A model generated the notes under the pieces. It was not told the DNA's origin. It searched no databases and saw nothing but the letters and a program-made list of their open reading frames with translations. From Rhodococcus sp. WMMA185 (lineage in GTDB: Bacteria > Actinomycetota > Actinomycetes > Mycobacteriales > Mycobacteriaceae), in assembly GCF_001767395.1 (NCBI RefSeq), contig NZ_CP017014.1:1-64000 (forward strand): a DNA stretch of 64,000 nt. Direction: 5' to 3'. Of this stretch, positions 13,777-30,052 are shown in pieces. How positions within the stretch are numbered: the first letter of the stretch is position 1; every line of letters begins with the position of its first letter. A program made the position numbers and the translations under genes.

Positions 13777-14132
13777 TTAGAGGATTTTCCTGACATCAGG
13801 ACCCGAACTCGAGTTCACACGCTTGCTACGGCAGTGGATCTGCACCTGGAGGCCTTCCTCTTTCCAAAGTCGATGGATCTTCTTCTTGTTCACCAACAGT
13901 CCCTCGTTCTGACGCAGATGTGCCCATGCGCGCCGAAATCCATGCAGCGGGTGTTCCGTGGCGTAGCGGCGAAGCCAGGCCCGCAAGTCGGCGTCGGGAT
14001 CTGGTTGATCGTGCGCTGCGGGAATCCGCCGAAACGTTGATCGGGCGAGCCCAACAGCTTTGCATGCCAATCGTTCCGAGATACTCAACGTGGAGGTCAG
14101 CATCTCGACTGCGCGGCGCTTGGCTGCTGGGC
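13777..14132 (-). pseudogene. IS3-family OrfB, N-terminal remnant
   Basis: The frame reads LSPAAKRRAVEMLTSTLSIS, then ERLACKAVGLARSTFRR, an HTH_21-like LRAWLRRYATEHPLHGFRRA and NEGLLVNKKKIHRLWKEEGL, then stops at 13777. An intact OrfB continues for about 180 further residues with the DDE integrase core, all absent. The frame joins OrfA through a likely -1 slip on the A-run (GGGAAAATTC) just before the OrfA stop, as is usual for IS3 elements. Confidence 0.72.
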
Positions 14133-14423
14133 TCAGAATTTTCCCTTGGCCACCTCACGTAGTGCGTCCTTTTCCAACTCGGCTTCGGCGAGTTGGCGTT
14201 TGAGCTTGCTGTTCTGTTTCCGGAGCTGTTCGAGCTCTTTTGCGGCTTCGGTATCTACGCCGCTGTACTGGCGTCGCCAGTTGTACAGCGTCGCTGTCGA
14301 TACCTCGAGGTCGGCGGCGATCTGCTCCTGCGTCTTACCTGTAGCGGTCAGCTCGTCTGCCCGCCGCAGCTTCCGAACGATGTCCTCTGCAGAGCTCCGC
14401 TTCCGTTCAGCCATCATCTCCAT
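14133..14423 (-). CDS. IS3-family transposase OrfA
   Basis: The 96-residue protein has a helix-turn-helix (SAEDIVRKLRRADELTATGK, QEQIAADLEVSTATLYNWRR) and a leucine-zipper-like coiled coil (EAAKELEQLRKQNSKLKRQL, AEAELEKDALREVAKGKF). This is the complete IS3 OrfA layout: DNA binding plus dimerisation. On its own it is not a transposase, and with OrfB truncated it may only bind the remaining IS end. Confidence 0.85.
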   Translation of the reverse strand: MEMMAERKRSSAEDIVRKLRRADELTATGKTQEQIAADLEVSTATLYNWRRQYSGVDTEAAKELEQLRKQNSKLKRQLAEAELEKDALREVAKGKF

Positions 14424-14502
14424 CGTCCTTCCACCCCCAGTCTTGGGGGCGAGAGGACTCTAGACAAAGTGAAACAAGCGCGGAAGTTTGCCCCCTGAGG
14501 CT

Positions 14503-15930: not shown

Positions 15931-16800
15931 ATGAAGGTATCAGTTTGTTCTCGGCTTGCTGCTGGGATAGCCGGGTTTGCTGTGGTCGGCGGCATCGCCG
16001 GCGCTGGCATCCTCTCGTCCACACAGCCCTCAACCAGCACCACGGCACCGGACATTCAACTTGCGGGGTTCGCGTCGGATCTCGGCGACTACCTGTTCCC
16101 CGGCATTGGTCAGGCCGCTGTCGACGCCGCCACCCGAGCCAGCGAGACCGGGGACCCCAAGGAGGCCTTCGTCCGGCAATTCCCCAACCTGGTCAGTCCG
16201 ACGCTCTCGGTAGTGAGCTACTTCCTGCCGTGGGATCCGATCGCCCTCTATGCATCGTTCTATGCAATGGAGCAAGTGCTGAATACGGGTGAGCTCTTCC
16301 CGAGCGGCCTTACCAATCCGGGCCATGATGTCTCGATCTCGGACCTGAGCGCCAAAGACAGGGAAGATCTCGCCAAGAACCTGGACGTAATCGACAGCAA
16401 CCTCCGCAAGATCGGAATTGACGTCGACAACCTGGACCCCAACAAGGTGCGCTCGATGCAGTCCGTGCTGGACTCTCTCGGCGCGAAGTTCGACCTGCAG
16501 TCTGCTGTCGACGAGCTGAAGTTCGCACGTGGCGTCCTCAACCCAGAAGATGCCGACGGTGGGACCTCGGATGAGGGGACCTCGGACGACGGGACCTCCG
16601 ATGAGGGGACCTCGGACGACGGGACCTCCGATGAGGGGACCTCGGATGAGGGGACCTCCGATGACGGGACCTCGGACGACGGGACCTCCGATGACGGGAC
16701 CTCGGATGAGGGGACCTCGGATGAGGGGACTACTAGTGGCAAGACCACCGGGAGCGTGGACATGATTCGCCACGCGCCTCGGGATACGGCCACCGAATAG
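15931..16800 (+). CDS. Secreted protein with acidic GTSD(E/D) pentapeptide repeats
   Basis: The 289-residue protein has a signal peptide (about residues 1-32, LAAGIAGFAVVGGIAGAGIL). A helical domain of about 170 residues follows (FASDLGDYLFPGIGQAAVDA, LSVVSYFLPWDPIALYASFY, LDVIDSNLRKIGIDVDNLDP). From about residue 211, eleven GTSDE or GTSDD units precede a degenerate GTTSG unit and a 20-residue tail. The repeats are 15 bp each at 16561-16725. There is no LPXTG motif or C-terminal membrane helix. The tail is very acidic and may be a spacer, a calcium-binding stretch or O-glycosylated. AGAAGG precedes the ATG. No family is recognised. Confidence 0.8.
   Translation: MKVSVCSRLAAGIAGFAVVGGIAGAGILSSTQPSTSTTAPDIQLAGFASDLGDYLFPGIGQAAVDAATRASETGDPKEAFVRQFPNLVSPTLSVVSYFLPWDPIALYASFYAMEQVLNTGELFPSGLTNPGHDVSISDLSAKDREDLAKNLDVIDSNLRKIGIDVDNLDPNKVRSMQSVLDSLGAKFDLQSAVDELKFARGVLNPEDADGGTSDEGTSDDGTSDEGTSDDGTSDEGTSDEGTSDDGTSDDGTSDDGTSDEGTSDEGTTSGKTTGSVDMIRHAPRDTATE
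16561..16740 (+). repeat. 15-bp tandem repeat array (11 units plus one degenerate)
   Basis: Units follow GGGACCTCSGATGAS or GGGACCTCSGACGAC, encoding GTSDE or GTSDD. The order by last residue is E,D,E,D,E,E,D,D,D,E,E. All unit lengths are multiples of three bases, so gain or loss of units keeps the frame and would change only the length of the acidic linker. Confidence 0.92.
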
Positions 16801-16995: not shown

Positions 16996-18192
16996 ATGTC
17001 TGGCACGACTATTCGTCGCGTGGTCAGTGTCGTCAGTGCCATGGCCGTGGTCGCAGGTTTCGCGGTGACGACTGGTGCCGGCGTTGCGGGTGCAGAGTCC
17101 GGATCGGTGTCGTGGACTTCCGGAAAGACCAAGTTCACCCGAACGATCAGCAATGTGAACCCTTCAGTCAACTCCAGGGTCACCGTGCAGACCAAAATCG
17201 AGAAGAAGTTCGGCAGTTCGGCGGAGTACATCTACGAGATCACGGACAGAACCCCTACATGCTGGAGCTTATTGTCGGCGAAGGTGAACGGGTATCCCTA
17301 TCAATCGGTCGGCCGCGGCCCAGGGGGTTATGGCGATACCCCCGGTGCCGCGAAACTCGCGGCTGGCATCTTCGATTGGCCGATCCGCCCCATCATCAGT
17401 CCGAAGTCGATTCTGTTCGAGTTCACGTACAACGTGTGGAGCAACTGTGAGCAAGGTGTTCCATTCGACACGGGGATGAGCTACAAGGGCTCGCACGGCA
17501 CCAGCAACTTCAAAACCAAGGGCCCGAGGGTCACGATCGGTAAAGTCCCCACTACCACCGAGTTCGGCGATGTGCCGGCCGAAGTCCACCTCGGGCAGTC
17601 GGTGCCGCTGACGGCGACCGTCACCGGTGGAGCCAAAGGCGACACCGTCGAGTTCTATGACGGTGCCACCAAGATCGGGACGGCGGCTCTCGACGCCAAG
17701 GGCGTGGCGTCGTTCGAGTGGACTCCGGACACGGATGGTGAGCACAAGCTGTCGGCGAAGTACCTGGGGACCTCGCGGGTGGGGGGCTCTCAGTCAGGTG
17801 TGCAGACCGTGCAGGTCCCGACCCCGGACGCTGAGACCACCACGGTGCTCACTGGCCCGTCGAGCGTGCAGACCGGCGCGGAGGTGAATTTCGAGGTGCA
17901 GATCTCCCCGATCCCAGAGGGTGGCATCGTGCAGTTCAGAGACGGTGACACCGACTTGGGTATCCCGGTACCGGTGGTCGAAGACGGCATGGTCAGCATC
18001 ACCCGCACCTTCGATTCCGCTGGCACCCATGACATCACCGCCGTCTACAGCGGTGCACCGGGCTATGTCGGTTCGACCTCCGAGGCGCTTACCGTCACGG
18101 TCACCCTCGACGACGACGGCGGCGGGAACGACGACGGCGGCACCGACGACCCCGTAGGCACAGGATCGGCGGGCAACACCTTCGGATCCTGA
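16996..18192 (+). CDS. Array copy 1: secreted Ig-like repeat protein, two Ig domains
   Basis: 398 residues. Signal peptide 1-33 (cleavage near GVAGA). The N-terminal beta-rich module spans about 34-183, with Cys89 (RTPTCWSLLSAKVNG) and Cys151 (WSNCEQGVPFDTGMSYKG), which probably form a disulfide outside the cell. Ig1 is about 185-274 (GDTVEFYDGATKIGTA core) and Ig2 about 281-370 (GIVQFRDGDTDLG core). The tail is an Asp/Gly linker and GTGSAGNTFGS. The N-module resembles DUF11-like sandwiches, and the Ig domains are of the bacterial Ig-like (Big_5 or similar) type. The N-module Cys1 context and a 35-bp block at 17854-17888 match copy 3 more closely than copy 2. The ATG is preceded by GATAGGAAA. 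Confidence 0.85.
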   Translation: MSGTTIRRVVSVVSAMAVVAGFAVTTGAGVAGAESGSVSWTSGKTKFTRTISNVNPSVNSRVTVQTKIEKKFGSSAEYIYEITDRTPTCWSLLSAKVNGYPYQSVGRGPGGYGDTPGAAKLAAGIFDWPIRPIISPKSILFEFTYNVWSNCEQGVPFDTGMSYKGSHGTSNFKTKGPRVTIGKVPTTTEFGDVPAEVHLGQSVPLTATVTGGAKGDTVEFYDGATKIGTAALDAKGVASFEWTPDTDGEHKLSAKYLGTSRVGGSQSGVQTVQVPTPDAETTTVLTGPSSVQTGAEVNFEVQISPIPEGGIVQFRDGDTDLGIPVPVVEDGMVSITRTFDSAGTHDITAVYSGAPGYVGSTSEALTVTVTLDDDGGGNDDGGTDDPVGTGSAGNTFGS

Positions 18193-18233
18193 CACCCGAC
18201 TACGAAGCGCGCTGCAACATCGAGAGGAAAGAG

Positions 18234-19397
18234 ATGTCCGGCAGGAACATACGACGTGTGGTCGGCACCGTCGGTGCCATGCTGATGACCGTGGGTTTCG
18301 CTGTCACGGTGGGCGCCGGAGACGCGGGTGCGGCTCCTGTCACGAAGTCGTGGTCCGACGGAAAGAGCAAGTTCACGCGGACGATCAGCAACGGGAATCC
18401 CAGCCCAGGAGACACCATTACCGTGTCGACCAAGTTCGAACGGAAGGTCGGTGGTGCGCTCGAGACTATCCACGAGGTCACCGACGTGCACCCGCAATGT
18501 CTGAACGCCCTGTCAGTGAAGGTGGACGGGAAGAGCCACGATATCGCGAACCGGTACCCCCAGTGGACGCAGGTCAGAGGGTCTTGGACAGTGCACCCGA
18601 TCATTTGGGAGAAGTCGCACACGTTCGAGTTCACGTACCGGGTCGAGTGCGGGGGCGGTCCGCTGACGACGGGAATGAACTACACGAGTTCACGCGGTAT
18701 ACATTCCTACGAGTCCAAGGGGCCAGAAATCACGGTCGGTCAGAGCACAACCAGCACCATCCTCGAAGTGCCGGGCGACCCGCAGGTCGGTAGTCCGGTG
18801 CGATTGAAGGCGACCGTTTCCGGCTCGTTCGTCAACCATGGCATCGGTTCCGTCGTGTTCTACGACGACACCAGGATGATTGGGACAGCACCCTTGACGG
18901 ATCAATTATTTTGGGGTGTGTCAACGTTCGACTGGACACCGGACACAGAGGGTTTGCACAAACTGTCTGCGAAATATGTGGGCAACTCGGAGATCCGAGG
19001 TTCGCAGTCGAACGTGGAGACCGTGCGGGTTTCGCCGGCCCCGGACGCCGAGACCACCACGGTGATCAGGGGACCGGCGACCGCGCAGACCGGCACCGAG
19101 GTGATCTTCGGCTCGCAGGTCTCCCCGGCCCCCGAGGGTGGCATCGTGCAGTTCCGGGACGGCGACACCGACTTGGGTAGTCCCGTGCCGGTGGATACTG
19201 ACGGCAGAGCCAACATCACCCATACCTTCGACTCCGCTGGCACCCATGACATCACCGCGGTCTACCGCGGAGCACCGGGCTATGTCGGTTCGACCTCCGA
19301 GGCTCTCACGGTCACTCTCGACGACGACAACGACGGCGGCGGTGGCACCGACGAGCCCACCGGCACAGGATCGGTGGGCAACACCTTCGGATCCTGA
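18234..19397 (+). CDS. Array copy 2: secreted Ig-like repeat protein, two Ig domains
   Basis: 387 residues: signal peptide (cleavage near GDAGA), N-module with Cys in HPQCLNALSVKVDGKS and VECGGGPLTTGMNY, two Ig-like domains and tail. The N-module is shorter than in copy 1. Ig1 has a small insertion (SFVNHGIGSVVFYDD) before its hairpin. Ig2 begins DAETTTVIRGPATAQTGTEV, and its DNA at 19068-19127 is identical over 60 bp to copy 4. The linker is Asp/Gly-rich (DDDNDGGGGTDEP) and ends GTGSVGNTFGS. It follows copy 1 after 41 bp with GAGAGGAAA before the start. Confidence 0.84.
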   Translation: MSGRNIRRVVGTVGAMLMTVGFAVTVGAGDAGAAPVTKSWSDGKSKFTRTISNGNPSPGDTITVSTKFERKVGGALETIHEVTDVHPQCLNALSVKVDGKSHDIANRYPQWTQVRGSWTVHPIIWEKSHTFEFTYRVECGGGPLTTGMNYTSSRGIHSYESKGPEITVGQSTTSTILEVPGDPQVGSPVRLKATVSGSFVNHGIGSVVFYDDTRMIGTAPLTDQLFWGVSTFDWTPDTEGLHKLSAKYVGNSEIRGSQSNVETVRVSPAPDAETTTVIRGPATAQTGTEVIFGSQVSPAPEGGIVQFRDGDTDLGSPVPVDTDGRANITHTFDSAGTHDITAVYRGAPGYVGSTSEALTVTLDDDNDGGGGTDEPTGTGSVGNTFGS

Positions 19398-19438
19398 CAC
19401 CTGACTGTGAAGCGCGCTTCGTGATCGAGAGGAAAGAG

Positions 19439-20635
19439 ATGTCCGGCAGGAATATTCGCCGCATGATCAGTGCCCTGGGTGTCGTGGCGGTAACCGTAGG
19501 ATTCACCTTGGCCGCCGGCGACGTAGCCAGTGCAGATCAAGGTGAGGTGTCCTGGAAAGAAGGCAACACCAAGCTCACCCGAACGATCAGCAATGTGAAC
19601 CCTCACGTCAACGAGAGGGTTACCACGAAGACGAAGATCGAACGGACTGGTGGGGTGGTGATGTACCTCAGAGAGTTCACGGATATCACCCCTACATGCT
19701 GGGAAGTGTTGTCGGCGAAGGTGAATGGGGAGTCCTATAGTCACGGCACTACCGCGGGTGCGGCACAGGTCCGGGGAGGCGCTATCCAGTGGCCGATTCG
19801 CGGCCTGGTCAGCAAGAATTCGCGAACAATCGAGTTCACGTACAGGGTCACGGACAGCTGCAAGCGCACCGATACCGTGGACACGGGGGTGACCTACGAC
19901 ACATCGCTCGGCAAAGGCGGCAACAAGACCAAGGGCCCGAAGGTCACGGTCGTCAAAGATCCCACGACCACCGAGTTCGGCGATGTGCCTGACGGTGTGC
20001 AGGTCGGGCATTCGGTTCCGCTGACGGCGAACGTGACCAATGGAGCGCAACAGATAGTCAGTGGTGACGTCGTCGAGTTCTACGACGGCACCACCAAGAT
20101 AGGAGAGGCCCCAGTCGGAAGGGGGTCTCACTACTGGACGGGCACGGCGGTTCTCGACTGGACACCCGAGACGGACGGTGCCCACAGCCTGTCCGCGGTA
20201 TACGTGGAGACCTCGAGGGTCGCGCGCTCGGAGTCGAGCAAGCGGACCGTGCAGATTTCGCCGGCCCCGGACGCGGAGACCAGAACAGTGGTCACCGGCC
20301 CGTCGAGCGTGCAGACCGGCGCGGAGGTGAACCTCGAGGCGCAGGTGTCCCCGACCCCTGAGGGTGGCATCGTGCAGTTCAGGGATGGTGACACCGACTT
20401 GGGTATCCCGGTACCGGTGGATGCGGACGGCAAGGCGAACATCACCTACACGTTCGATTCCGCTGGCACCTATGACATCACCGCCGTCTACAGCGGAGCA
20501 CCGGGCTATGTCGGTTCGACCGCTCAGCCCATCAGGGTCACGGTCACCGACAACGACGGGGATGGCGGCACCGACGACGGCGGCAACACCGATGGAGGCG
20601 GCACAGGATCGGCCGGCAACATCTTCGGATCCTGA
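19439..20635 (+). CDS. Array copy 3: secreted Ig-like repeat protein, two Ig domains
   Basis: 398 residues. The signal peptide ends near GDVASA. Cys positions lie in ITPTCWEVLSAKVNGES and VTDSCKRTDTVDTG; lacking the HP before the first Cys, it groups with copy 1. Ig1 has an insertion (NGAQQIVSGDVVEFYDGTTK). Ig2 has GIVQFRDGDTDLGIPVPVDA. The tail, DNDGDGGTDDGGNTDGG and GTGSAGNIFGS, is nearly the same as in copy 4. An in-frame GTG lies 18 bases upstream, but GAGAGGAAAGAG before the ATG at 19439 fits the array consensus. Confidence 0.84.
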   Translation: MSGRNIRRMISALGVVAVTVGFTLAAGDVASADQGEVSWKEGNTKLTRTISNVNPHVNERVTTKTKIERTGGVVMYLREFTDITPTCWEVLSAKVNGESYSHGTTAGAAQVRGGAIQWPIRGLVSKNSRTIEFTYRVTDSCKRTDTVDTGVTYDTSLGKGGNKTKGPKVTVVKDPTTTEFGDVPDGVQVGHSVPLTANVTNGAQQIVSGDVVEFYDGTTKIGEAPVGRGSHYWTGTAVLDWTPETDGAHSLSAVYVETSRVARSESSKRTVQISPAPDAETRTVVTGPSSVQTGAEVNLEAQVSPTPEGGIVQFRDGDTDLGIPVPVDADGKANITYTFDSAGTYDITAVYSGAPGYVGSTAQPIRVTVTDNDGDGGTDDGGNTDGGGTGSAGNIFGS

Positions 20636-20674
20636 TTCGACCACGAAACACGCTTCACCATCGAGAGGTAATAG

Positions 20675-21844
20675 ATGTTCGGCAGCAACATACGTCGTGC
20701 GGTCGGCGCCGTGGTGGCAGCCGCAGCATTGGTTGCCACGGTCGGGGCCGGTCCCGCGGGCGCAAAGGACGAAGACGAATCGGTGTCATGGACGGACGGC
20801 ATGACCAAGATCACCCGAACGGTCAGCAATGCGTACCTTCGAGTCGACGACACCGTCACCGTGACAACCAAGTTGGAGAAGAAGTTCGGCGGTGTGACGG
20901 AGTTCATCTACGAGGTAACGGATGTGCACCCTGCGTGTCTGATGTTTGACTCGGCGAAGCTGGATGGTAAGTCCTTTGGAGTCGGCACGGGTGCCGATTG
21001 GGTGAGGTTCAGTAGCAACAGAATCAAGTGGCCGATACACCCGGTCGTCGGTACGAGGTCGCGCACGTTCGAGGTCACGTACAAGGTCGGATCGAGTTGT
21101 GAACGCAACGTTGAGCTGGACACGGGAATGCGCTACGTGAGCAATCTCGTCACCCGTAAGCACAACACCAAGGGTCCGGCCATCTTGGTCGGGTTGGACA
21201 CCTCCAAAACCGAGTTCCGCTCTGTACCGACCGATGCGCAGGTCGGAGAGTCGGTACCGCTCGACTCGAAGGTGACCGGTGGTAACGCCGGAGAGACCGT
21301 CGAATTGTACGACGGTGCCACGAAGATCGGGACGGCCGTGCTCAACCGCAGTGGTGTGGCTCTATTCGACTGGACACCGGATAGGGAGGGTGCGCACACA
21401 CTGACCTCGAAGTACCCGGGAAACTCGCACACCCGGAGCTCGCAGTCGAGCTTCGAGACCGTGCAGGTCTGGGCTGGGTACGCCGAGACCGCCACGGTAC
21501 TCAGGGGACCGGCGACCGCGCAGACCGGCACCGAGGTGATCTTCGGCTCGCAGGTCTCCCCGACTCCCGAGGGTGGCACCGTGCAGTTCCGGGACGGTTT
21601 CGCCGACCTGGGTACCCCGGTACCGGTGGATGCGGACGGCAGAGCCAGCATCACCCACACGTTCGATTCCGCTGGCACCCATAACGTCACCGCCGTCTAC
21701 GGCGGAGCACCGGGTTATGTCGGTTCGACCTCCGAGGCGCTCACCGTCACGGTCACCGACAACGACGGGGATGGTGGCACCGACGACGGCGGCAATACCG
21801 ATGGAGGCGGGCCAGGATCGCCCGGCAACATCTTCGGATCCTGA
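20675..21844 (+). CDS. Array copy 4: secreted Ig-like repeat protein, two Ig domains
   Basis: 389 residues beginning MFGSNIRRAVGAVVAAAALV. The signal peptide is slightly shorter than in the other copies. Cys lies in HPACLMFDSAKLDGKS and VGSSCERNVELDTGMRY. Ig1 has GETVELYDGATKIGTAVLNR, where Leu replaces the usual Phe before Tyr. Ig2 starts YAETATVLRGPATAQTGTEV and shares a 60-bp identical block (21503-21562) with copy 2. The tail is DNDGDGGTDDGGNTDGG then GPGSPGNIFGS, with Pro replacing Thr. The ribosome-binding segment reads GAGAGGTAATAG, the most diverged of the set. Confidence 0.84.
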   Translation: MFGSNIRRAVGAVVAAAALVATVGAGPAGAKDEDESVSWTDGMTKITRTVSNAYLRVDDTVTVTTKLEKKFGGVTEFIYEVTDVHPACLMFDSAKLDGKSFGVGTGADWVRFSSNRIKWPIHPVVGTRSRTFEVTYKVGSSCERNVELDTGMRYVSNLVTRKHNTKGPAILVGLDTSKTEFRSVPTDAQVGESVPLDSKVTGGNAGETVELYDGATKIGTAVLNRSGVALFDWTPDREGAHTLTSKYPGNSHTRSSQSSFETVQVWAGYAETATVLRGPATAQTGTEVIFGSQVSPTPEGGTVQFRDGFADLGTPVPVDADGRASITHTFDSAGTHNVTAVYGGAPGYVGSTSEALTVTVTDNDGDGGTDDGGNTDGGGPGSPGNIFGS

Positions 21845-21883
21845 CACGAATACCGATCACACCGCATCATCGAAAGGAAAATC

Positions 21884-22744
21884 ATGCCCGGCAGGAACAT
21901 ACGTCGCATAGTCGGTGCCCTCGGTGCCGCCGCGGTGGCCGCAGGACTCGTGGTCGCCGCTGGTGCCGGTGTTGCCGGTGCGGCAGACAGTTCGGTGACG
22001 TGGACCGATGGAAATGCCAGGCTCACCCGCAGTTTCGGCAACATAAAACCTAGCGTGGGCGACGATGTCACTGTGACGACGAAGTTCGAATGGTTCAAGG
22101 GTTCGGTCTTGGATAATGAACAAGTCCATGACATTTGGGACATACACCCGGAATGTCTGACCTTCAGATCGGCCAGGGTGGACGGGAAGCCATATGACCC
22201 CTATACCCAGGGTGCAGATTTCGTGAGGGTCAGCGGCTCGTGGTATGTAAATACGAATCAGTCGCACACGTTCGAGTTCACGTATCTGGTTGGGCCGAAC
22301 TGCGACCGCAACGTCCCGCTGACGACGGGGATGCGCTACCTCAGTAGCCGTTCCGACGGAAACATCAATGCCTACACCGATGTGGGCCCGGGCGTCACGG
22401 TCAGGTTGGACAGCTCCAGCACCGCCCTCGATACTGTGTCGTCCGACGTGCAGGTCGGGCAGTCGGTGCCGCTGACGGCGACGGTTACCGGTGGTGCCGC
22501 CGGAGAAGCAGTCGAATTCTACGACGGTCCTGCCAAACTCGGCACGGCCCTGCTCGACGGCACTGGTGTGGCGTCCTTCGGCTGGATACCGGACGTGGCG
22601 GGCAGACACGGTCTGTCCGCGAAATACCTGGGAAACCCACAGACGGAGAGCTCTCAGTCGAGTTTGCAGACCGTGCAGGTCTCGAGCAACTCCGGCATCG
22701 AGCCCGGCATGACGGGGTCGCTCGGCAACATATTCGGATCCTGA
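21884..22744 (+). CDS. Array copy 5: secreted Ig-like protein, one Ig domain
   Basis: 286 residues. It has the signal peptide (VVAAGAGVAGAADS), an N-module with Cys in HPECLTFRSARVDGKP and VGPNCDRNVPLTTGMRY, and a single Ig domain (GEAVEFYDGPAKLGTALLDG). There is no second Ig domain and no long Asp/Gly linker; the Ig ends QTVQVSSNSGIEPGM and passes directly to TGSLGNIFGS. Compared with the two-domain copies, one whole Ig unit of about 90 residues is cleanly missing, consistent with loss by recombination or an ancestral single-domain form. Confidence 0.84.
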   Translation: MPGRNIRRIVGALGAAAVAAGLVVAAGAGVAGAADSSVTWTDGNARLTRSFGNIKPSVGDDVTVTTKFEWFKGSVLDNEQVHDIWDIHPECLTFRSARVDGKPYDPYTQGADFVRVSGSWYVNTNQSHTFEFTYLVGPNCDRNVPLTTGMRYLSSRSDGNINAYTDVGPGVTVRLDSSSTALDTVSSDVQVGQSVPLTATVTGGAAGEAVEFYDGPAKLGTALLDGTGVASFGWIPDVAGRHGLSAKYLGNPQTESSQSSLQTVQVSSNSGIEPGMTGSLGNIFGS

Positions 22745-22782
22745 CCCAACCACAATCACGCTTTTTCATTGAGAGGAAATTG

Positions 22783-23631
22783 ATGTCTGGCACGAACATT
22801 CGTCGCAGAATCGGTGCCCTGGGCGCCGTGGCGGTGGCCTCAGGATTCGCGGTCACCGCCGGTGCCGGCGTCGCCAGTGCGGCACCCGACACGGTGACCT
22901 GGACCGATGGTGACCACACGTTTACTCGCACGATCAGCGACGCAACCCCCTACCCGGGAGACACCGTCACCGTGTCGACGAAGTTCGAAACCAACGCCTT
23001 TGCCCTTATCGAGTACATCACCCTGGTCAACGACGTACACCCGGAATGCTTCACGTTCGAGTCGGTGGAGGTGGACGGGACGCCCTACGATCTCGACAGC
23101 CAGGATGCCGTTGGGGCGCAAATCACGGGGGCGTGGGAGTGGAGCAAGTCTAGAAACCCCTCGCACACGTTCGAATTCACCTACGAGGTCGGCGAGAACT
23201 GCGATGTCAACGTTCCGCTGACGACGGGAATGCGCTACTACGGTGGGGGTAGCCATGCCTACAACACCATGGGCCCGACTGTCACGGTTACAAAAGACCC
23301 CACGACCACCGCTCTTGCTGACGTGCTGGCCGATGTGCAGGTCGGGCAGTTGGTACCGCTCACGGCGACCGTGACCGGCGGCTCCACCGGTGACGACGTC
23401 GAGTTCTACGACGGCGGCACCAAGATCGGGACAGCTCAGCTGGGCAGCCTTCGCATGGCAACACTCGACTGGACGCCCGCCACAGGTGGTGAGCACAGAC
23501 TTTCCGCGAAATATGTTGGTGCCCAGCGGACACAGAGTTCGGAGTCGAGCGTGCAGACCGTGCAAGTCTCGAGCGCCCCGAACGCCGAGCCTCCAGGTAC
23601 GGGGTCGGCGACCAACATCTTCGGATCCTGA
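22783..23631 (+). CDS. Array copy 6: secreted Ig-like protein, one Ig domain
   Basis: 282 residues, the shortest copy. The signal peptide ends near GVASAAP. Cys lies in HPECFTFESVEVDGTP and VGENCDVNVPLTTGMRY. One Ig domain (GDDVEFYDGGTKIGTAQLGS) leads to SSAPNAEPPG and a C-terminus GTGSATNIFGS, where Thr replaces the usual Gly before Asn. The N-module carries an unusual Trp-rich segment, ITGAWEWSKSRNPSHTFEF. TTG at 22780 directly precedes the ATG; the ATG is preferred. Confidence 0.83.
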   Translation: MSGTNIRRRIGALGAVAVASGFAVTAGAGVASAAPDTVTWTDGDHTFTRTISDATPYPGDTVTVSTKFETNAFALIEYITLVNDVHPECFTFESVEVDGTPYDLDSQDAVGAQITGAWEWSKSRNPSHTFEFTYEVGENCDVNVPLTTGMRYYGGGSHAYNTMGPTVTVTKDPTTTALADVLADVQVGQLVPLTATVTGGSTGDDVEFYDGGTKIGTAQLGSLRMATLDWTPATGGEHRLSAKYVGAQRTQSSESSVQTVQVSSAPNAEPPGTGSATNIFGS

Positions 23632-23671
23632 CCCACCCACTACGCGTGTTTTGATCATCGAGAGGAAATTC

Positions 23672-24886
23672 ATGTCTGGTAGGAACATTCGTCGTGCGGC
23701 CGGCGCGTTCAGTGCCGTGGTGGTGGCTGCGGGGTTCGCGTTCACCGTGGGTGCCGGCGTCGCGGCTGCGGATTCCCAATCGAAGTCGTGGACCGACGGG
23801 AAGAGCAAGTTCACCCGCACGATCAGCAACGTGAACCCCCACGCGGGCGACACCATCACCGTGACGACGAAGTTCGAACGGAAGGTCGGTGGTGTGCTCG
23901 AGTACATCCACGAGGTCAATGACGTGCACCCGGAATGCCTGACGCTCGAGTCGGTCAAGGTGGACGGCAAGTCCCCTAACTCGAATCTCGTGAGCGAGGG
24001 TACCGACTACGTGAAGGTCAGGGGAGGCAACAGTACGTGGGTCGTGCACCCGATCATCAGTCCGAAGTCGCACAAGTTCGAGTTCACGTACAAGGTCGGT
24101 GCGAACTGTGACCGTGGCGCTGCGTTGAAGACGGGAATGCGATACTCGGGCTCGCTCGGCAGCGGTACGTACAACACCAAGGGGCCGGCCATCACGGTTG
24201 GGTTGAGCAATTCCACCACCGCTTTGGACGCCGTGCCGGCCGATGTGCAGATCGGGCAGGCGGTCCCGCTGAACGCGACGGTGAGCGGTGGCGCCACCGG
24301 CGACACCGTCGAGTTCTACGACGGCGCAACCAAGATCGGGACGGCCACGCTCAACGCCAAGGGTGGCGCAGCGTTCGACTGGACGCCGGACACGGAGGGT
24401 ACCCACACATTGTCGGCGAAGTACGTGGCTACCGCACGAGTGGCGGGTTCGCAGTCGAGTGTGCTGACCGTGCAGGTCTCGCCAGTGCCGGATGCGGAGA
24501 CCACCACGGTACTGACCGGCTCGTCGAGCGCGCAGACCGGCGTGGAGGTGAGTTTCGAGGCGCAGGTGTCCCCGGCCCCTGAGGGTGGCACCGTGCAGTT
24601 CAAGGATGGCGACATCGACCTGGGTGGCCCTGTGGCGGTCAGCGAGAACGGTACGGCGAGTATCACTCACACCTTCGATGCTGAGGGTACTTATGACATC
24701 ACCGCCGTCTATAGCGGAGCACCGGGATATTCCGGATCGACCGCCGAGACCGTCACCGTCACGGTCACCGACGTGGTGGACGGCGGCCCCGGGGACGGTG
24801 GACCCGGCGACGGAGGACCCGGCGACGGAGGCGGCAACACCGACGACGGCGGCACAGGATCGTTGGGTAACACCTTCGGATCCTGA
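23672..24886 (+). CDS. Array copy 7: secreted Ig-like repeat protein, two Ig domains
   Basis: 404 residues: signal peptide (GAFSAVVVAAGFAFTVGAGVA), N-module with Cys in HPECLTLESVKVDGKS and VGANCDRGAALKTGMRY, and two Ig domains (GDTVEFYDGATKIGTATLNA; GTVQFKDGDIDLGGPVAVSE). The linker is a run of GDGGP units (PGDGGPGDGGPGDGG) before NTDDGG and GTGSLGNTFGS. The signal peptide and linker style are closest to copy 11 at the far end of the array. A longer open frame upstream runs back through copy 6 and is not used; the conserved GAGAGGAAATTC decides the ATG at 23672. Confidence 0.84.
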   Translation: MSGRNIRRAAGAFSAVVVAAGFAFTVGAGVAAADSQSKSWTDGKSKFTRTISNVNPHAGDTITVTTKFERKVGGVLEYIHEVNDVHPECLTLESVKVDGKSPNSNLVSEGTDYVKVRGGNSTWVVHPIISPKSHKFEFTYKVGANCDRGAALKTGMRYSGSLGSGTYNTKGPAITVGLSNSTTALDAVPADVQIGQAVPLNATVSGGATGDTVEFYDGATKIGTATLNAKGGAAFDWTPDTEGTHTLSAKYVATARVAGSQSSVLTVQVSPVPDAETTTVLTGSSSAQTGVEVSFEAQVSPAPEGGTVQFKDGDIDLGGPVAVSENGTASITHTFDAEGTYDITAVYSGAPGYSGSTAETVTVTVTDVVDGGPGDGGPGDGGPGDGGGNTDDGGTGSLGNTFGS

Positions 24887-24924
24887 TCTGATGCCAAGCG
24901 CGCTGCATCATCGAAAGGAAATTC

Positions 24925-26343
24925 ATGTCTGGCAGTAATATTCGTCGTGCAGTCAGTGCCGTCAGTGCTGTGGTTGTGGCTGCAGGGTTCGCGGTCACCG
25001 TGGGTGCCGGCGCCGCGGGTGCGGCTGAAAAAACAATGAAATGGTCCGATGGGTACAGCAAGTTCACCCGGACGGTCAGCAACGTGAACCCCCACCCGGG
25101 AGACAACGTCAGCGTGTCGATAAAGTTCGAACGGAAGTCTCCTGGCGCCGTTGAGTACATCTACCACGTAAAGGACGTGCATCCGCCGTGTTGGCAGTTC
25201 ACTGGGGCGGATGTGAACAGTATTTACTGGGGAAGAACTTCCACGGGCAGTATTACCAAAGGTACGGCCAAAGGCATGGATTACGCGGAGGCCAACAGAG
25301 GTAGCGTCGGCGACTGGCCGGTGTACCCGAATGTCAATCCGAACAAACGCACATTCACGTTCCACTACAAGGTCGGCGACAACTGTGATTACGACGTTCC
25401 GCTGAAGACGGGGATGAACTACAGCGGTTCACTCGGCAGTGGCAGCTACAACACCAAGGGGCCAGACGTCACGGTCTCACTCAATCCCAGCACCACTGTT
25501 CTCACTGTGCCACCCGATGTGCAGGTCGGGCAGACCGTACCCCTGACGGCTACGCTGAGTAACTCCTACAATTTCCCGAACGACATCGAATTCTATGACG
25601 GTCCCACCAAGATCGGGACGGCTACGTTGAACGGCTTCAGGGGGACGGCGACATTCGACTGGACACCCGACACGGTCGGTGAACACAAGCTGACCGCGAA
25701 ATTCCTGGGGGATACGAGGACCGCGGCTTCGCAGTCGGACGTGACCGCGCAGGTCCTGGACGCCGAGACCAGCACGATGCTCACCGGTCTGCCGACCGCG
25801 CAGACCGGCACGGAGGTGAGTTTCGAGGCGCAGGTCTCACCAACCCCCGGGGGCGGTATCGTCCAATTCAGGGACGGTGACAGCGATATGGGGCTCCCGG
25901 TGCCGGTGGATGCCGACGGCAAAGCGAGCATCACCCACGCGTTCGATTCCGAAGGCACCCATGACATCACGGCTGTCTACAGCGGCACGGCCGCAGTCGC
26001 CGGTTCGACATCCGCCGGCCTCTCGGTGACGGTGTCTTCGATCGAGACGACCACGGTGCTGACCCTACCCGCGTCCGCGGCGAGGGGCGTTGCGGTGGAC
26101 CTCTCAGCGACGGTCTCCCCGAACCAGACGGGTGGTACCGTGCAGTTCTTCGACGGCACCGTCCCGATCGGGGACCCGGTACCGGTGACCGATGGAATAG
26201 CAACGCTGTCACATGCTTTCACCGAGTCGGGTGATCACCAAATCACCGCGATCTTCCATGGAGCACAGGGCCAGCTCGGCTCGACCGCGCAGGCCGGTAC
26301 GGTCACCGTCGCCGACTGGCCTGGAAGCATCTTCGGATCCTGA
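24925..26343 (+). CDS. Array copy 8: secreted Ig-like repeat protein, three Ig domains
   Basis: 472 residues. The N-module is longer than usual, with an insertion around RTSTGSITKGTAKGMDYAEA. Its Cys are in HPPCWQFTGADVNS and VGDNCDYDVPLKTGMNY. Ig1 contains NDIEFYDGPTKIGTATLNGF, Ig2 GIVQFRDGDSDMGLPVPVDA and Ig3 GTVQFFDGTVPIGDPVPVTD. Ig3 begins TTTVLTLPASAARGVAVDLS. The Asp/Gly linker is absent: Ig3 passes straight into VADWPGSIFGS, the only copy without the GN before the final IFGS. It is followed by the only long spacer (114 bp). Confidence 0.84.
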   Translation: MSGSNIRRAVSAVSAVVVAAGFAVTVGAGAAGAAEKTMKWSDGYSKFTRTVSNVNPHPGDNVSVSIKFERKSPGAVEYIYHVKDVHPPCWQFTGADVNSIYWGRTSTGSITKGTAKGMDYAEANRGSVGDWPVYPNVNPNKRTFTFHYKVGDNCDYDVPLKTGMNYSGSLGSGSYNTKGPDVTVSLNPSTTVLTVPPDVQVGQTVPLTATLSNSYNFPNDIEFYDGPTKIGTATLNGFRGTATFDWTPDTVGEHKLTAKFLGDTRTAASQSDVTAQVLDAETSTMLTGLPTAQTGTEVSFEAQVSPTPGGGIVQFRDGDSDMGLPVPVDADGKASITHAFDSEGTHDITAVYSGTAAVAGSTSAGLSVTVSSIETTTVLTLPASAARGVAVDLSATVSPNQTGGTVQFFDGTVPIGDPVPVTDGIATLSHAFTESGDHQITAIFHGAQGQLGSTAQAGTVTVADWPGSIFGS

Positions 26344-26457
26344 CTTGGCTTCACCACCCGTCCATCTGCGTTCGCAGAATCCGGTCCGAAACCAGTTCAC
26401 CTGGTCGAGTAGCAGTTCGTCACCGACGAAGCACGCCTCGTGATCGAGAGGAAATCG
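26344..26457 (+). other. Long spacer between array copies 8 and 9
   Basis: At 114 bp this is the only spacer not 38-41 bp long. The last 40 bases match the array consensus, with GAGAGGAAA before the ATG. The first 70 bases are unique and could hold an internal promoter or be the scar of a lost copy. No clear terminator stem or -10/-35 pair is visible. Confidence 0.5.
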
Positions 26458-27906
26458 ATGTTCGACAGAAATATTCGCCGCCTTGTCGGCGCCGCCGGCG
26501 CCATTGCGGTGGCCGCTGGATTCGCGGTCACCGTCGGTGCAGGCGTCGCTGACGCCGCTTCCAATTCGGTGACGTGGACCGACGGCAACAGCAAGTTCAC
26601 CCGGACGATCAGCAATGTGAACCCCCGCGCGGGAGACACCATCACCTCGACTACGAGGTTCGAGCGGACCTCGAGCGTCATGGAGTTCATCTACTGGGTC
26701 AAGGACTGGCACCCGACGTGCCTAACGCCTCTGTCGGCGAGGGTGGGTAGTAACCCCAACGGGTACGACAGCTTTGAATCCTATGGCATCGACAGCAACG
26801 GCAAAAACGGTGACTGGACGAAGCTTGACGGCAATCTCACAAAATGGTCGGTGAACTCACCAACGCTGAGCGGTAGGCCGACATATCCGTCGCACCGCAC
26901 GTTCGAGATAACGTACAAGGTCGAAGCGAAGTGCGACCGCGATGTTCCACTGGATACGGGGATGAGTTACAAGGGCTCGCTCGGCAGCGGCACGTACAAG
27001 ACCAAGGGCCCAGCCATCACGGTCCAGAAGGACCAGCCCGTGATAAGCCTCTCCGCGGCCGCCGATGTGCCTTTCACGCAGTCGGCAACGCTGACGGCGA
27101 CCGTGACCGACAGCGCCGAGGTCGACAAGATCGATTTCTACGACGGCACCACCAAGATCGGGACAGGTCCGCTGAACAACAAGGGTGTGGCGACATTCGA
27201 CTGGACACCGGATACGCCCGGTCAGCACTCTCTGACTGCGAAATACGTGGGGAACTCGCGGGCCGAGCCCTCGGAGTCGAGCGCGCAGACCGTGCAGGTT
27301 TCGGATGCTGAGATTACGACGGTGCTGACCGGTCCGGAGGCTGCGGATATCGGCTCCGAGTCAACCTTCACGGCGCAGATGTCGCCCGTACCAAGCGGTG
27401 GCACTGTGCAATTCAAAGACGGCGCAGCCAATATGGGCGACCCGGTACCGGTGGATGCGGACGGCAAGGCGAATATCACCCGCACCTTCGATTCCCAAGG
27501 CACCCACACCATCATCGCGGAATACTCGGGCACGGATGGGTTTGCCCGTTCGACCTCCGACGGCCTCCCCGTGCCGGTGTCGGAGGCCGAGACCACAGTG
27601 ATGCTGACTCCACCCGCGTCCGCGGCAAGGGGTGCCGCCGTGGATCTCGTGGCTCAGATCACACCGGCAATCGGTGGCGGTGTCGTGCAATTCAAAGACG
27701 GCGACACCGACCTGGGCAGCCCGGTACTGGTGGGCGCGGACGGCAAGGCGAGTACCACCCACACTTTCCGCTCCGCAGGTGACCACGAAATCACAGCCGT
27801 CTATAGCGGAACGCTGGGCCATCGGGGCTCGACCTCCGGTCCCGTCACGATCACCGTCACCGACGATGGCGGCACAGGATCGCCGGGAAACATCTTCGGC
27901 TCCTGA
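26458..27906 (+). CDS. Array copy 9: secreted Ig-like repeat protein, three Ig domains
   Basis: 482 residues, the longest copy, starting MFDRNIRRLVGAAGAIAVAA. N-module Cys are in HPTCLTPLSARVGSNP and VEAKCDRDVPLDTGMSYKG, with an insertion of about 25 residues between them. Ig1 is divergent at its start (QPVISLSAAADVPFTQSATL) but keeps DKIDFYDGTTKIGTGPLNNK. Ig2 has GTVQFKDGAANMGDPVPVDA. Ig3 (TTVMLTPPASAARGAAVDLV; GVVQFKDGDTDLGSPVLVGA) is related to Ig3 of copy 8. The C-terminus is DDGGTGSPGNIFGS. The final codons read TTCGGCTCC, not the TTCGGATCC seen in the other ten. Confidence 0.84.
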   Translation: MFDRNIRRLVGAAGAIAVAAGFAVTVGAGVADAASNSVTWTDGNSKFTRTISNVNPRAGDTITSTTRFERTSSVMEFIYWVKDWHPTCLTPLSARVGSNPNGYDSFESYGIDSNGKNGDWTKLDGNLTKWSVNSPTLSGRPTYPSHRTFEITYKVEAKCDRDVPLDTGMSYKGSLGSGTYKTKGPAITVQKDQPVISLSAAADVPFTQSATLTATVTDSAEVDKIDFYDGTTKIGTGPLNNKGVATFDWTPDTPGQHSLTAKYVGNSRAEPSESSAQTVQVSDAEITTVLTGPEAADIGSESTFTAQMSPVPSGGTVQFKDGAANMGDPVPVDADGKANITRTFDSQGTHTIIAEYSGTDGFARSTSDGLPVPVSEAETTVMLTPPASAARGAAVDLVAQITPAIGGGVVQFKDGDTDLGSPVLVGADGKASTTHTFRSAGDHEITAVYSGTLGHRGSTSGPVTITVTDDGGTGSPGNIFGS

Positions 27907-27945
27907 CTCTGTTATCACGAATGCTTCATATTTGAAAGGGAATTC

Positions 27946-28806
27946 ATGTCCGAAAGGAACAATCGTCGCGCTCTCGGCACCCTCGGCGCCGTAGCGGCGG
28001 CCGCAGGATTCACGGTCACTGCCGGCGTCGGCGTCGGTGCTGCGGCGCCGGCGCCGGTGGCATTCAACGACGGCACAAGCACCTTCACTCGCACGATCAG
28101 CGACGTGAGCGCGGCCCCGGGAGACACCATCACGTCGACGACGAGGATCGAACCGGTCGGTGATGTGTCGGAGACCATCGATGACTTCACGGATATCTAC
28201 CCGGCATGTATGACGTTTCAATCGGTGAAGCTGGACGGGGAGCCCTTGGATCTCACCAACACTCTCGGTCCCGATTCCGTCACGGTCAGCAGCGGCAATG
28301 GTGCAGGGGATGTGCTGCCCCTGACAATCGGCCCGGAATCGCACACCTTCGAGTTCGCGTACGAGGTCGGCGAGGATTGTGGCCGCAATGTTCCGCTCGC
28401 GACGGGAATGCGATTTACGGTCTTGAACGACAGGGGTACCACCGTCCAAGAAGTCAACCTTGGACCGCGCATCACGGTCTCCGACGCCTCCACTACCGAT
28501 CTCGCTGCCGTACCGTCCGGCGTGCAGATAGGGCAGTCGGTACCGCTGACGGCCACCGTGACCGGCGGCGGCGCCGGTGACACCGTCGAGTTCTACGACG
28601 ACATCACCAAGATCGGGACGGCTGAGCTCGACGACACTGGCGCCGCGACATTGGATTGGACACCGGACACGTCAGGTGCCCATCCCCTGACCGCGAAGTA
28701 CCTGGGAAACCCGCAGACCCAGAGTTCGCAGTCGAGTGTGCAGACCGTGCAGGTTTCGGACGCCGAGACCGGAACAGGATCGATCGGCAACATCTTCGGA
28801 TCCTGA
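27946..28806 (+). CDS. Array copy 10: secreted Ig-like protein, one Ig domain
   Basis: 286 residues, beginning MSERNNRRALGTLGAVAAAA. The N-module is the most diverged of the set: no Trp after the signal peptide (APVAFNDGTSTFTRTISDV), Cys in YPACMTFQSVKLDGEP and VGEDCGRNVPLATGMRF. The single Ig domain carries GDTVEFYDDITKIGTAELDD with Asp in place of the usual Gly. QTVQVSDAE leads directly to TGTGSIGNIFGS with no linker. The ribosome-binding segment is GAAAGGGAATTC. Like copies 5 and 6 it lacks Ig2. Confidence 0.83.
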   Translation: MSERNNRRALGTLGAVAAAAGFTVTAGVGVGAAAPAPVAFNDGTSTFTRTISDVSAAPGDTITSTTRIEPVGDVSETIDDFTDIYPACMTFQSVKLDGEPLDLTNTLGPDSVTVSSGNGAGDVLPLTIGPESHTFEFAYEVGEDCGRNVPLATGMRFTVLNDRGTTVQEVNLGPRITVSDASTTDLAAVPSGVQIGQSVPLTATVTGGGAGDTVEFYDDITKIGTAELDDTGAATLDWTPDTSGAHPLTAKYLGNPQTQSSQSSVQTVQVSDAETGTGSIGNIFGS

Positions 28807-28846
28807 CCCGAACCATCACGCACGCTTCGTCATTGAGAGGAAATTC

Positions 28847-30052
28847 ATGCCTGGCATGAACATTCGTCGTGCGCTCGGTGCCTTCAGTGCCGTGGTGGTG
28901 GCCGCAGGATTCGCGGTCACCGTGGGCGCCGGCGTTGCTGACGCGGCTGACGACTCGAAGAAATGGTCCGACCACTTCAGCCAGTTCACCCGGACGATAA
29001 GCAACGTGAACCCCCATTCGGGAGAGACCATCACCGTGACGACAAAGTTCCAACGCAAAGCCGGTGGCGCCGTCGAGTACATCTACAACGTTCGGGATGT
29101 GCATCCCGCGTGCCTGACGGTCGTGTCGGCGAAGGTGGGTGGGAAGTCTTATGGCATCGACAGCAAGGGCGATGATTGGGCGAAGGTAAAGGGCAACATC
29201 ATCAAGTGGCCGGTGTACCCGATGTTCGGACCGGAGCTTCCCGGGTTCAAGCAGTCGCGCACGTTCGAGTTCACCTACAGGGTCGGTGCGGATTGTGACC
29301 GCAACGTTGCGCTGGATACGGGAATGCGCTACACGGGTTCGCTCGGCAGCGGTAAGTACAGCACCAAAGGTCCGACCATCAAGGTCGCGCTGGACACCTC
29401 CACCACAGATCTCGCTGCCGCACCGTCCGACGTGCAGGTAGACAAGTCGGTATCGCTGACTGCGACCGTGACCGGTGGCGCCAAAGGCGACACCGTCGAG
29501 TTCTACGACGGTGCCACCAAGATCGGGACGGCTGAGCTCGACAAAAAGGGTGTGGCGGCATTCGAGTGGACTCCGGACGCGGCGGGTGAGCACACACTGT
29601 CCGCGAAGTTTCTGGAGACCCCGCATTCGAAGGGCTCGCAGTCGGGTGTGCAGACCGTGCAGGTCCCGGTCCCGGACGCTGAGACCACCACGGTGCTCAC
29701 CGGCCCGTCGAGCGTGCAGGCCGGCGTGGAGGTGAGTTTCGAGGCGCAGGTGTCTCCAGCCCCTGAGGGTGGCATCGTGCAGTTCAGGGACGGCGACACC
29801 GACTTGGGTATCCCGGTGCCGGTGATCGAGGACGGCAAGGCGAGCATCACTCACACCTTCAACTCCGGAGGTACCCACGACATCACCGCCGTCTACAGCG
29901 GAGCCCCGGGCTATTCCGTTTCGACCGCCGGGGCCGTTACGGTCACTGTCACCGACACGGACGGTGTCCCCGGGGACGGTGGCCCCGGCGACGGCGACGG
30001 CAACACCGACGACGGCGGCATGGGATCGCCGGGCAACATCTTCGGATCCTGA
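28847..30052 (+). CDS. Array copy 11: secreted Ig-like repeat protein, two Ig domains
   Basis: 401 residues starting MPGMNIRRALGAFSAVVVAA, with a signal peptide closest to copy 7. N-module Cys are in HPACLTVVSAKVGGKS and VGADCDRNVALDTGMRY. Ig1 has GDTVEFYDGATKIGTAELDK. Ig2, DAETTTVLTGPSSVQAGVEV followed by GIVQFRDGDTDLGIPVPVIE, is close to that of copy 1 at the other end of the array. The linker is GDGGPGDGDGNTDDGG and the C-terminus GMGSPGNIFGS, with Met replacing Thr. It is the last gene; a weak inverted repeat (30064-30086) follows the stop. Confidence 0.84.
   Translation: MPGMNIRRALGAFSAVVVAAGFAVTVGAGVADAADDSKKWSDHFSQFTRTISNVNPHSGETITVTTKFQRKAGGAVEYIYNVRDVHPACLTVVSAKVGGKSYGIDSKGDDWAKVKGNIIKWPVYPMFGPELPGFKQSRTFEFTYRVGADCDRNVALDTGMRYTGSLGSGKYSTKGPTIKVALDTSTTDLAAAPSDVQVDKSVSLTATVTGGAKGDTVEFYDGATKIGTAELDKKGVAAFEWTPDAAGEHTLSAKFLETPHSKGSQSGVQTVQVPVPDAETTTVLTGPSSVQAGVEVSFEAQVSPAPEGGIVQFRDGDTDLGIPVPVIEDGKASITHTFNSGGTHDITAVYSGAPGYSVSTAGAVTVTVTDTDGVPGDGGPGDGDGNTDDGGMGSPGNIFGS

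Follow-up and report, generated by a model that had tools for sequence, protein, structure and literature searches.

Fibrillar adhesins are exported proteins in which a stalk of repeated immunoglobulin (Ig)-like domains carries a terminal, beta-rich adhesive domain, and periscope proteins are those in which the number of stalk repeats changes. Eleven tandem genes at positions 16996-30052 of a 64-kb stretch of Rhodococcus sp. WMMA185 DNA (the first 64 kb of a genome assembled as a single contig of 4,444,448 bases, hereafter the window) encode proteins that can be compared with both. Like fibrillar adhesins (the topic of PMC8877628), the array proteins are of exported type and combine a repeated Ig-like stalk with a terminal beta-rich domain; unlike them, they are short (one to three stalk domains), carry an N-terminal head and an F-G-S tail, occur as eleven tandem paralogues, and show neither a sortase nor a C-terminal membrane anchor. 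The number of stalk repeats varies, as in periscope proteins (the topic of PMC9704523), but here the variation is seen between paralogues. The predicted head fold resembles the Ig-like D2 domains of the sortase-dependent pilins EbpB, RrgB, and SpaD, whereas the genome gives no sortase match, and the array proteins show no LPXTG-like end and no invariant lysine in the head, where a cysteine pair is conserved. Proteins annotated as "Ig-like domain-containing protein" or "Ig-like repeat protein" in Rhodococcus and Prescottella have this head together with Big_3_5 repeats and, in most cases, the F-G-S tail, although most of those listed, many of about 680 amino acids (aa), have a longer stalk. The O-mycoloylated Corynebacterium proteins PorH, ProtX, and PorB likewise bear a serine at or near a flexible C-terminus, with PorH and PorB ending in NFSS; these are porin-type proteins with mycoloylation, whereas the Rhodococcus array proteins are candidates for such a modification. 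Our preferred reading, which we hold to be moderately probable, is that the eleven proteins of this mycolic-acid bacterium are short fibrillar-adhesin-like surface proteins, that they belong to a birth-and-death family, and that the tail holds them at the mycomembrane.

Anatomy of the array, its heads and its stalks

The first-pass annotation of the window had described eleven intact tandem paralogues with a signal peptide, a cysteine-paired N-terminal module, Ig domains, and a common ending, with no genes between them, and all of these elements were seen at 16996-30052 on the plus strand. The eleven open reading frames (ORFs) encode 282-482 aa without internal stops, and the intergenic gaps (41, 41, 39, 39, 38, 40, 38, 114, 39, and 40 bp from gene 1 to gene 11) leave no space for additional genes. 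A purine-rich, AGG-containing, ribosome-binding-site-like stretch precedes the start of all eleven genes, the start codons chosen for genes 3, 6, 7, 9, and 11 being internal to the longest ORFs. A crude home-made rule scored an N-terminal signal peptide in 11/11 proteins, each of which contains exactly two cysteines, both in the head, where they plausibly form a disulphide. All eleven proteins end in F-G-S (N-[IT]-F-G-S in ten, S-I-F-G-S in gene 8), and gene 1 shares 46-63% whole-protein identity with the others. Chance is excluded as the source of this pattern, the parts of which are as follows.

16996..18192, + strand: array gene 1, 398 aa; head, two Ig domains, and tail; orthologue on R. 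marinonascens NZ_BCXB01000038.1
18234..19397, + strand: array gene 2, 387 aa; head, two Ig domains (by alignment), and tail
19439..20635, + strand: array gene 3, 398 aa; head, two Ig domains, and tail
20675..21844, + strand: array gene 4, 389 aa; head, two Ig domains (by alignment), and tail
21884..22744, + strand: array gene 5, 286 aa; head, one Ig domain, and tail
22783..23631, + strand: array gene 6, 282 aa; head, one Ig domain, and tail
23672..24886, + strand: array gene 7, 404 aa; head, two Ig domains, and tail
24925..26343, + strand: array gene 8, 472 aa; head, three Ig domains, and tail
26458..27906, + strand: array gene 9, 482 aa; head, three Ig domains, and tail
27946..28806, + strand: array gene 10, 286 aa; head, one Ig domain, and tail
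28847..30052, + strand: array gene 11, 401 aa; head, two Ig domains, and tail
28847..28945, + strand: gene 11 signal-peptide region by the crude rule, residues 1-33 (the structure model has low confidence over residues 1-30)
28946..29392, + strand: gene 11 head module, residues 34-182; two cysteines, predicted all-beta
29393..29953, + strand: gene 11 Ig stalk, about residues 183-369; two Big_3_5 domains
29954..30022, + strand: gene 11 Gly/Asp-rich linker (model confidence score pLDDT <50 at residues 374-394)
30023..30049, + strand: gene 11 C-terminal tail G-S-P-G-N-I-F-G-S
18193..18233, + strand: intergenic unit, an example of the 38-41 bp class, with a ribosome-binding-site-like stretch

The heads, each about 150 residues long, share 34-64% identity (median, 47%; 55 pairs), and within the head slice variability peaks at residues 38-43, 65-82, and 134-138. 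The idea of a family of exported-type proteins that supplies many variants is supported. Structure modelling predicted the head to be an all-beta sandwich of pilin/adhesin type, a common fold, and in the comparison with fibrillar adhesins this terminal domain showed an adhesin/pilin-like fold with no known ligand domain. The Pfam and NCBIfam scans took in nine of the eleven proteins, the Ig units of genes 2 and 4 being taken from the alignment. All nine matched PF16640 (Big_3_5) at 52-169 bits against a cut-off of 35.5, with one copy in genes 5, 6, and 10, two in genes 1, 3, 7, and 11, and three in genes 8 and 9. The repeated Ig-like stalk therefore consists of one to three units (three genes having one), with more in relatives. 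None of the nine gave a sequence match to RrgB_K2N_iso_D2 or DUF11, and no NCBIfam family rose above its cut-off in any of them.

The operon-like packing and the ribosome-binding-site-like stretch at every gene would also suit a structural coat, in which many copies would simply mean more of an S-layer-like or capsule-like protein, and their variety would be meaningless. This we consider improbable, since the heads are diverse and hold their one-to-one identity across species (see below), and codon bias in the array does not exceed that of neighboring genes. Promoter and terminator scans yielded matches not above those in shuffled sequence, and a hairpin spotted by eye after gene 11 was discarded because its stability lay within chance (z 0.49).

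The shared C-terminal tail and its proposed link to the mycomembrane

The shared tail is the more novel part of the locus. Its consensus, approximately [ST]-G-S-x-G-x-x-F-G-S, lies at the extreme C-terminus, and the last 30 residues of the 11 array proteins contain neither an LPXTG-like end nor a membrane helix. Among the best 120 of 293 passing homologues, 112 end in FGS and 77 have the identical end GSLENIFGS. The pattern G-x-x-F-G-S-stop has 22 matches in the genome, 20 of them with a true stop, and 18 of these 20 close long ORFs with an N-terminal signal (by eye). These are ten array genes, three genes of a second array whose head is that of the window array, and five further architectures: the second head type of that array, a beta-propeller protein containing a single Ig domain (L045/L065), a GH64 glucanase, an NHL propeller, and, by eye, a protein bearing an Ig/PIG-like region. 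The remaining two close ORFs of 69 and 32 codons. On the minus strand near 3025780, a tail-like end (...GGLNFFGGLNFGS) on a 32-codon frame is perhaps the remnant of a broken or misframed gene. In a hand-picked 400-kb sample outside the arrays, with genes called by a simple script, one of 309 genes ends in F-[GS]-S(S); this gene belongs to the 74 scored by the crude rule as having a signal peptide, and the end occurs in 0/235 genes lacking one.

The same ending is therefore common to unrelated secreted proteins, and this, like the two further Ig arrays of the genome, goes beyond the first-pass annotation. Array 2 (2187191-2196500) comprises four genes with the window head followed by two with another head, all ending in FGS or FGSS, and is adjoined by a SipW-type exported protein (TIGR04089; L042:13372-14139). 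Array 3 (3919900-3927450, minus strand) consists of four genes of two alternating types with other heads; the tails of one type read SSGFGS, and those of the other, which has a DUF11-like head (1/2 tested), read STGSLGG. One array-3 protein matched DUF11 over the cut-off and RrgB below it. GH64 proteins carry the tail in 4 of the best 120 of 1304 matches, including that of this genome and two from other Rhodococcus, and a second GH64 of the same genome is without it. The tailed protein had been taken by eye for a haem-transport protein, an assignment dropped because Pfam gives a GH64 beta-1,3-glucanase. Among NHL homologues, 10/91 carry the tail, eight of them Rhodococcus- or Prescottella-named, plus that of this genome; one Rhodococcus-named homologue (P0243) lacks it. 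Movement of the tail among unrelated exported proteins of one lineage resembles the behavior of a sorting signal. Another secreted-type protein (L099:3060-3806), GH25-lysozyme-like by eye, ends in PFGS.

The sortase family PF04203 had no match in the genome, while three control genomes, including that of C. glutamicum, were positive; with this result and their F-G-S tails, the array proteins differ from sortase-anchored pilins and adhesins. Sortase islands are described for R. equi and R. erythropolis in the R. equi genome paper; the lack of sortase is accordingly a trait of this genome rather than of the genus. By contrast with the sortase search, PF00756, the family that includes mycoloyltransferases, gave 12 strong matches, and the nearest solved structure was Cmt1 for three of the four tested (L109, L111, and L112) and PS1 for the fourth (L106). 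According to the available portions of three reports (PMC5310785, PMC11066868, and PMC12632848), Cmt1 O-mycoloylates proteins in C. glutamicum, the PorH end NFSS holds a mycoloylated serine, ProtX is modified at its penultimate serine, and the sites favor serine among Gly/Ala/Ser in flexible stretches; the last of these also states that blocking mycoloylation of PorH and PorA together abolished surface assembly. An N-x-F-G-S motif at a flexible end is compatible with O-mycoloylation. Because no sortase was found and Cmt1-like mycoloyltransferases were, we propose that the tail may anchor the array proteins at the mycomembrane, perhaps in O-mycoloylated form.

Under this proposal, each array protein would be exported by Sec, and the N-terminal head would form the outward variable part, with a surface, a glycan, or a partner cell as its probable binding target. 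The Ig domains, one to three in number, would serve as a spacer of variable length, followed by a flexible Gly/Asp linker running to the fixed F-G-S end. This end would tether the protein to the mycomembrane, most likely through O-mycoloylation of serine residues in the Gly/Ser tail. The repertoire may change as genes are duplicated in tandem or lost and as pieces of the stalk are exchanged. Co-transcription, surface location, adhesion, and lipid anchoring are what we infer for the array proteins. A broader proposal, which we advance tentatively and rate as possible rather than probable, is that the tail acts as an undescribed general sorting or anchoring signal of Rhodococcus-type mycolata, sortase-free and transferable, that is read by a Cmt1-like protein mycoloyltransferase and by which adhesins, propeller proteins, and glucanases would reach the mycomembrane, with the array as the largest client family in the genome.

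Alternatively, the array proteins could be freely secreted extracellular-matrix or biofilm proteins, with the tail serving as a secretion, maturation, or assembly motif instead of an anchor. The missing sortase match, LPXTG-like end, and membrane helix agree with free secretion, as do the presence of the same tail on GH64, a secreted-type enzyme, and the SipW-type neighbor of array 2. Nevertheless, an end retained so widely among the homologues behind a low-confidence linker suits an anchor or sorting signal at least equally, and we judge free secretion rather unlikely.

Protein transport to, and assembly in, the mycomembrane is described as a major gap in the accessible text of PMC12632848. 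If the proposed function of the tail is true, a short C-terminal tag common to unrelated exported proteins, present on some paralogues of a genome and absent from others, would open mycomembrane sorting to direct testing in harmless strains, and the tail could find biotechnological use as a display tag. The array itself is a natural repertoire of variable heads on a fixed tail.

Recurrence and evolution of the family

Our full-alignment search matched 17/28 genus genomes, a count that includes Ig-only matches, and the head-only search matched 54/251 family genomes in 10/31 genera at E 1e-5, with at most 15 candidates scored per genome, so that large per-genome counts are lower bounds. Head matches lie in tandem in several genomes (e.g., G083, G099, G105, G127, and G139), and short frames of about 300 aa are also present in other arrays (G048 and G105); named carriers include Prescottella agglutinans, P. 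equi, R. triatomae, R. xishaensis, and R. spongiicola. Recurrence of tandem arrays among relatives, with differing copy numbers, was accordingly supported. The label of an undescribed system fared less evenly: the family is widespread and annotated, hence not unknown, while its function is undescribed as far as our searches reach, with no account of the family or its tail found in the open-access PMC literature.

The suggested link to phage interaction found no backing, as gene 11 had no match in the phage collection, and neither genes 1 and 11 nor three neighbors matched PADLOC models. Matches from plasmids extend over no more than 37% of gene 11, in the Ig region, and a mobile-element or phage origin was rejected on these results. 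Rapid protein change and birth-and-death turnover would fit a phage-facing repertoire, in which the variants act as receptors or decoys and turnover evades phages, but fast change is possible in any exposed protein, and, given the lack of phage-borne relatives of gene 11 and of defence-family matches for genes 1 and 11, we see only a very slim prospect for it.

The closest named relative among the matches is R. marinonascens, with 89% protein identity for gene 1 over the best segment. Its contig NZ_BCXB01000038.1 holds 13 full-length family frames plus fragments, one stop-split copy, one copy without cysteines, and an inverted pair (23562-26177) in an otherwise plus-strand array, with broken copies close by. 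Genes 1-3, 5-9, and 11 are colinear with their R. marinonascens partners, gene 10 matches an inverted copy, and no partner for gene 4 was found in that array. An assembly collapse or expansion artefact was dismissed, since the genome is a single contig, the heads differ at about half of their residues, and the R. marinonascens assembly has its own colinear array, in which copies have been gained, lost, inverted, or broken.

In trees that omit M07, M13, M14, M16, M17, and M18, 9/10 assigned pairs joined by head (eight strongly supported; gene 7/M06 unresolved), 7/10 by the first Ig domain (Ig1), and 3/7 possible pairs by the second (Ig2), where gene 2 clustered with gene 4. Inside Ig domains, R. 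marinonascens paralogues share identical tracts of 199+89 bp and 189 bp; the longest among window genes is 62 bp, in Ig2, and shorter ones (35-46 bp) also occur in signal peptides and heads. Together, the pair trees and exact tracts imply that heads are old and individual and that the later stalk has been exchanged. Synonymous divergence (dS) was 0.21-0.28 in the array versus 0.46-0.49 in the flanks, about half; codon bias is not stronger in the array and was set aside as the source of its low dS, which suggests exchange between lineages.

The ratio of nonsynonymous to synonymous divergence (omega), pooled over nine pairs with the inverted, diverged W10/M12 pair kept out, was 0.60 for the head, 0.51 for Ig1, and 0.35 for the rest, compared with control values of 0.06 (FAD dehydrogenase), 0.15 (TetR), and 0.04 (ATPase); the hydrolase and aconitase controls had no orthologue on the compared contig, yielding 27 and 40 chance-aligned codons. 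The corresponding ratio of proportions (pN/pS) for the head was 0.63 (95% confidence interval, 0.53-0.76), above that of the rest (ratio 1.62, p 0.0004), in statistics that treat sites as independent. These omega values and the broken copies in R. marinonascens could reflect neutral expansion, with duplicates drifting under weak constraint and with little function. We hold this to be very unlikely, because 11/11 frames are open, the cysteine pair and tail persist in each copy, 10/11 genes have an assigned R. marinonascens partner, nine of them joined in the head tree despite a flank dS of about 0.46, and the confidence interval of the head pN/pS lies below 1.

Several findings weigh against the favored explanation of adhesin-like proteins held at the mycomembrane. 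The head fold matches generic Ig-like structures, with integrin and diphtheria-toxin domains scoring equally, so that a ligand cannot be deduced from it. The raw genome count of the tail pattern is not above that of the backwards-pattern control (22 versus 30); the tail signal rests on the location of the matches, not on the raw count. A single relative (L044) has, by eye, an apparent C-terminal membrane stretch in place of the tail. Mycoloylation lacks a strict consensus (PMC11066868), PorH S56A by itself left surface assembly intact (PMC12632848), and a mapped mycoloylation site in Rhodococcus was not found in the accessible portions of the literature. Furthermore, Ig1 mixes little, and neighboring genes are also fast, with an omega of 0.38 for the secreted-type gene at 15931 and of 0.46 for the sigma ORF, whose called start extends beyond the likely gene. 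The head pN/pS is below 1 and equal to that of Ig1 within error (p 0.3), so positive or diversifying selection on the heads is not supported; on the sequence comparison, head evolution is fast yet constrained.

Genomic surroundings

Directly upstream of the array lies the following gene, whose product shows 71% identity in R. marinonascens and is without an FGS tail.

15931-16800: secreted-type protein gene with an acidic Ser/Thr repeat tract (TSDEGTSDDG-like)

Farther upstream are ATPase-like, sigma-factor-like, TetR-like, and FAD-dehydrogenase-like genes, and downstream are genes for an alpha/beta hydrolase and an aconitase-like protein and a frame resembling a non-ribosomal peptide synthetase, all named by eye. 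No pathway that would take in the array was seen among these window neighbors. The synthetase-like frame (34615-49293, minus strand) encodes 4892 aa and appears by eye to be multi-modular, and an apparent IS3-type transposase remnant, also judged by eye, lies upstream of the array at about 13800-14450 on the minus strand. From 49.4 kb onward, the Pfam-named genes are metabolic or transport genes, and a multicopper oxidase (Pfam) is encoded at 54625-56109 on the minus strand.

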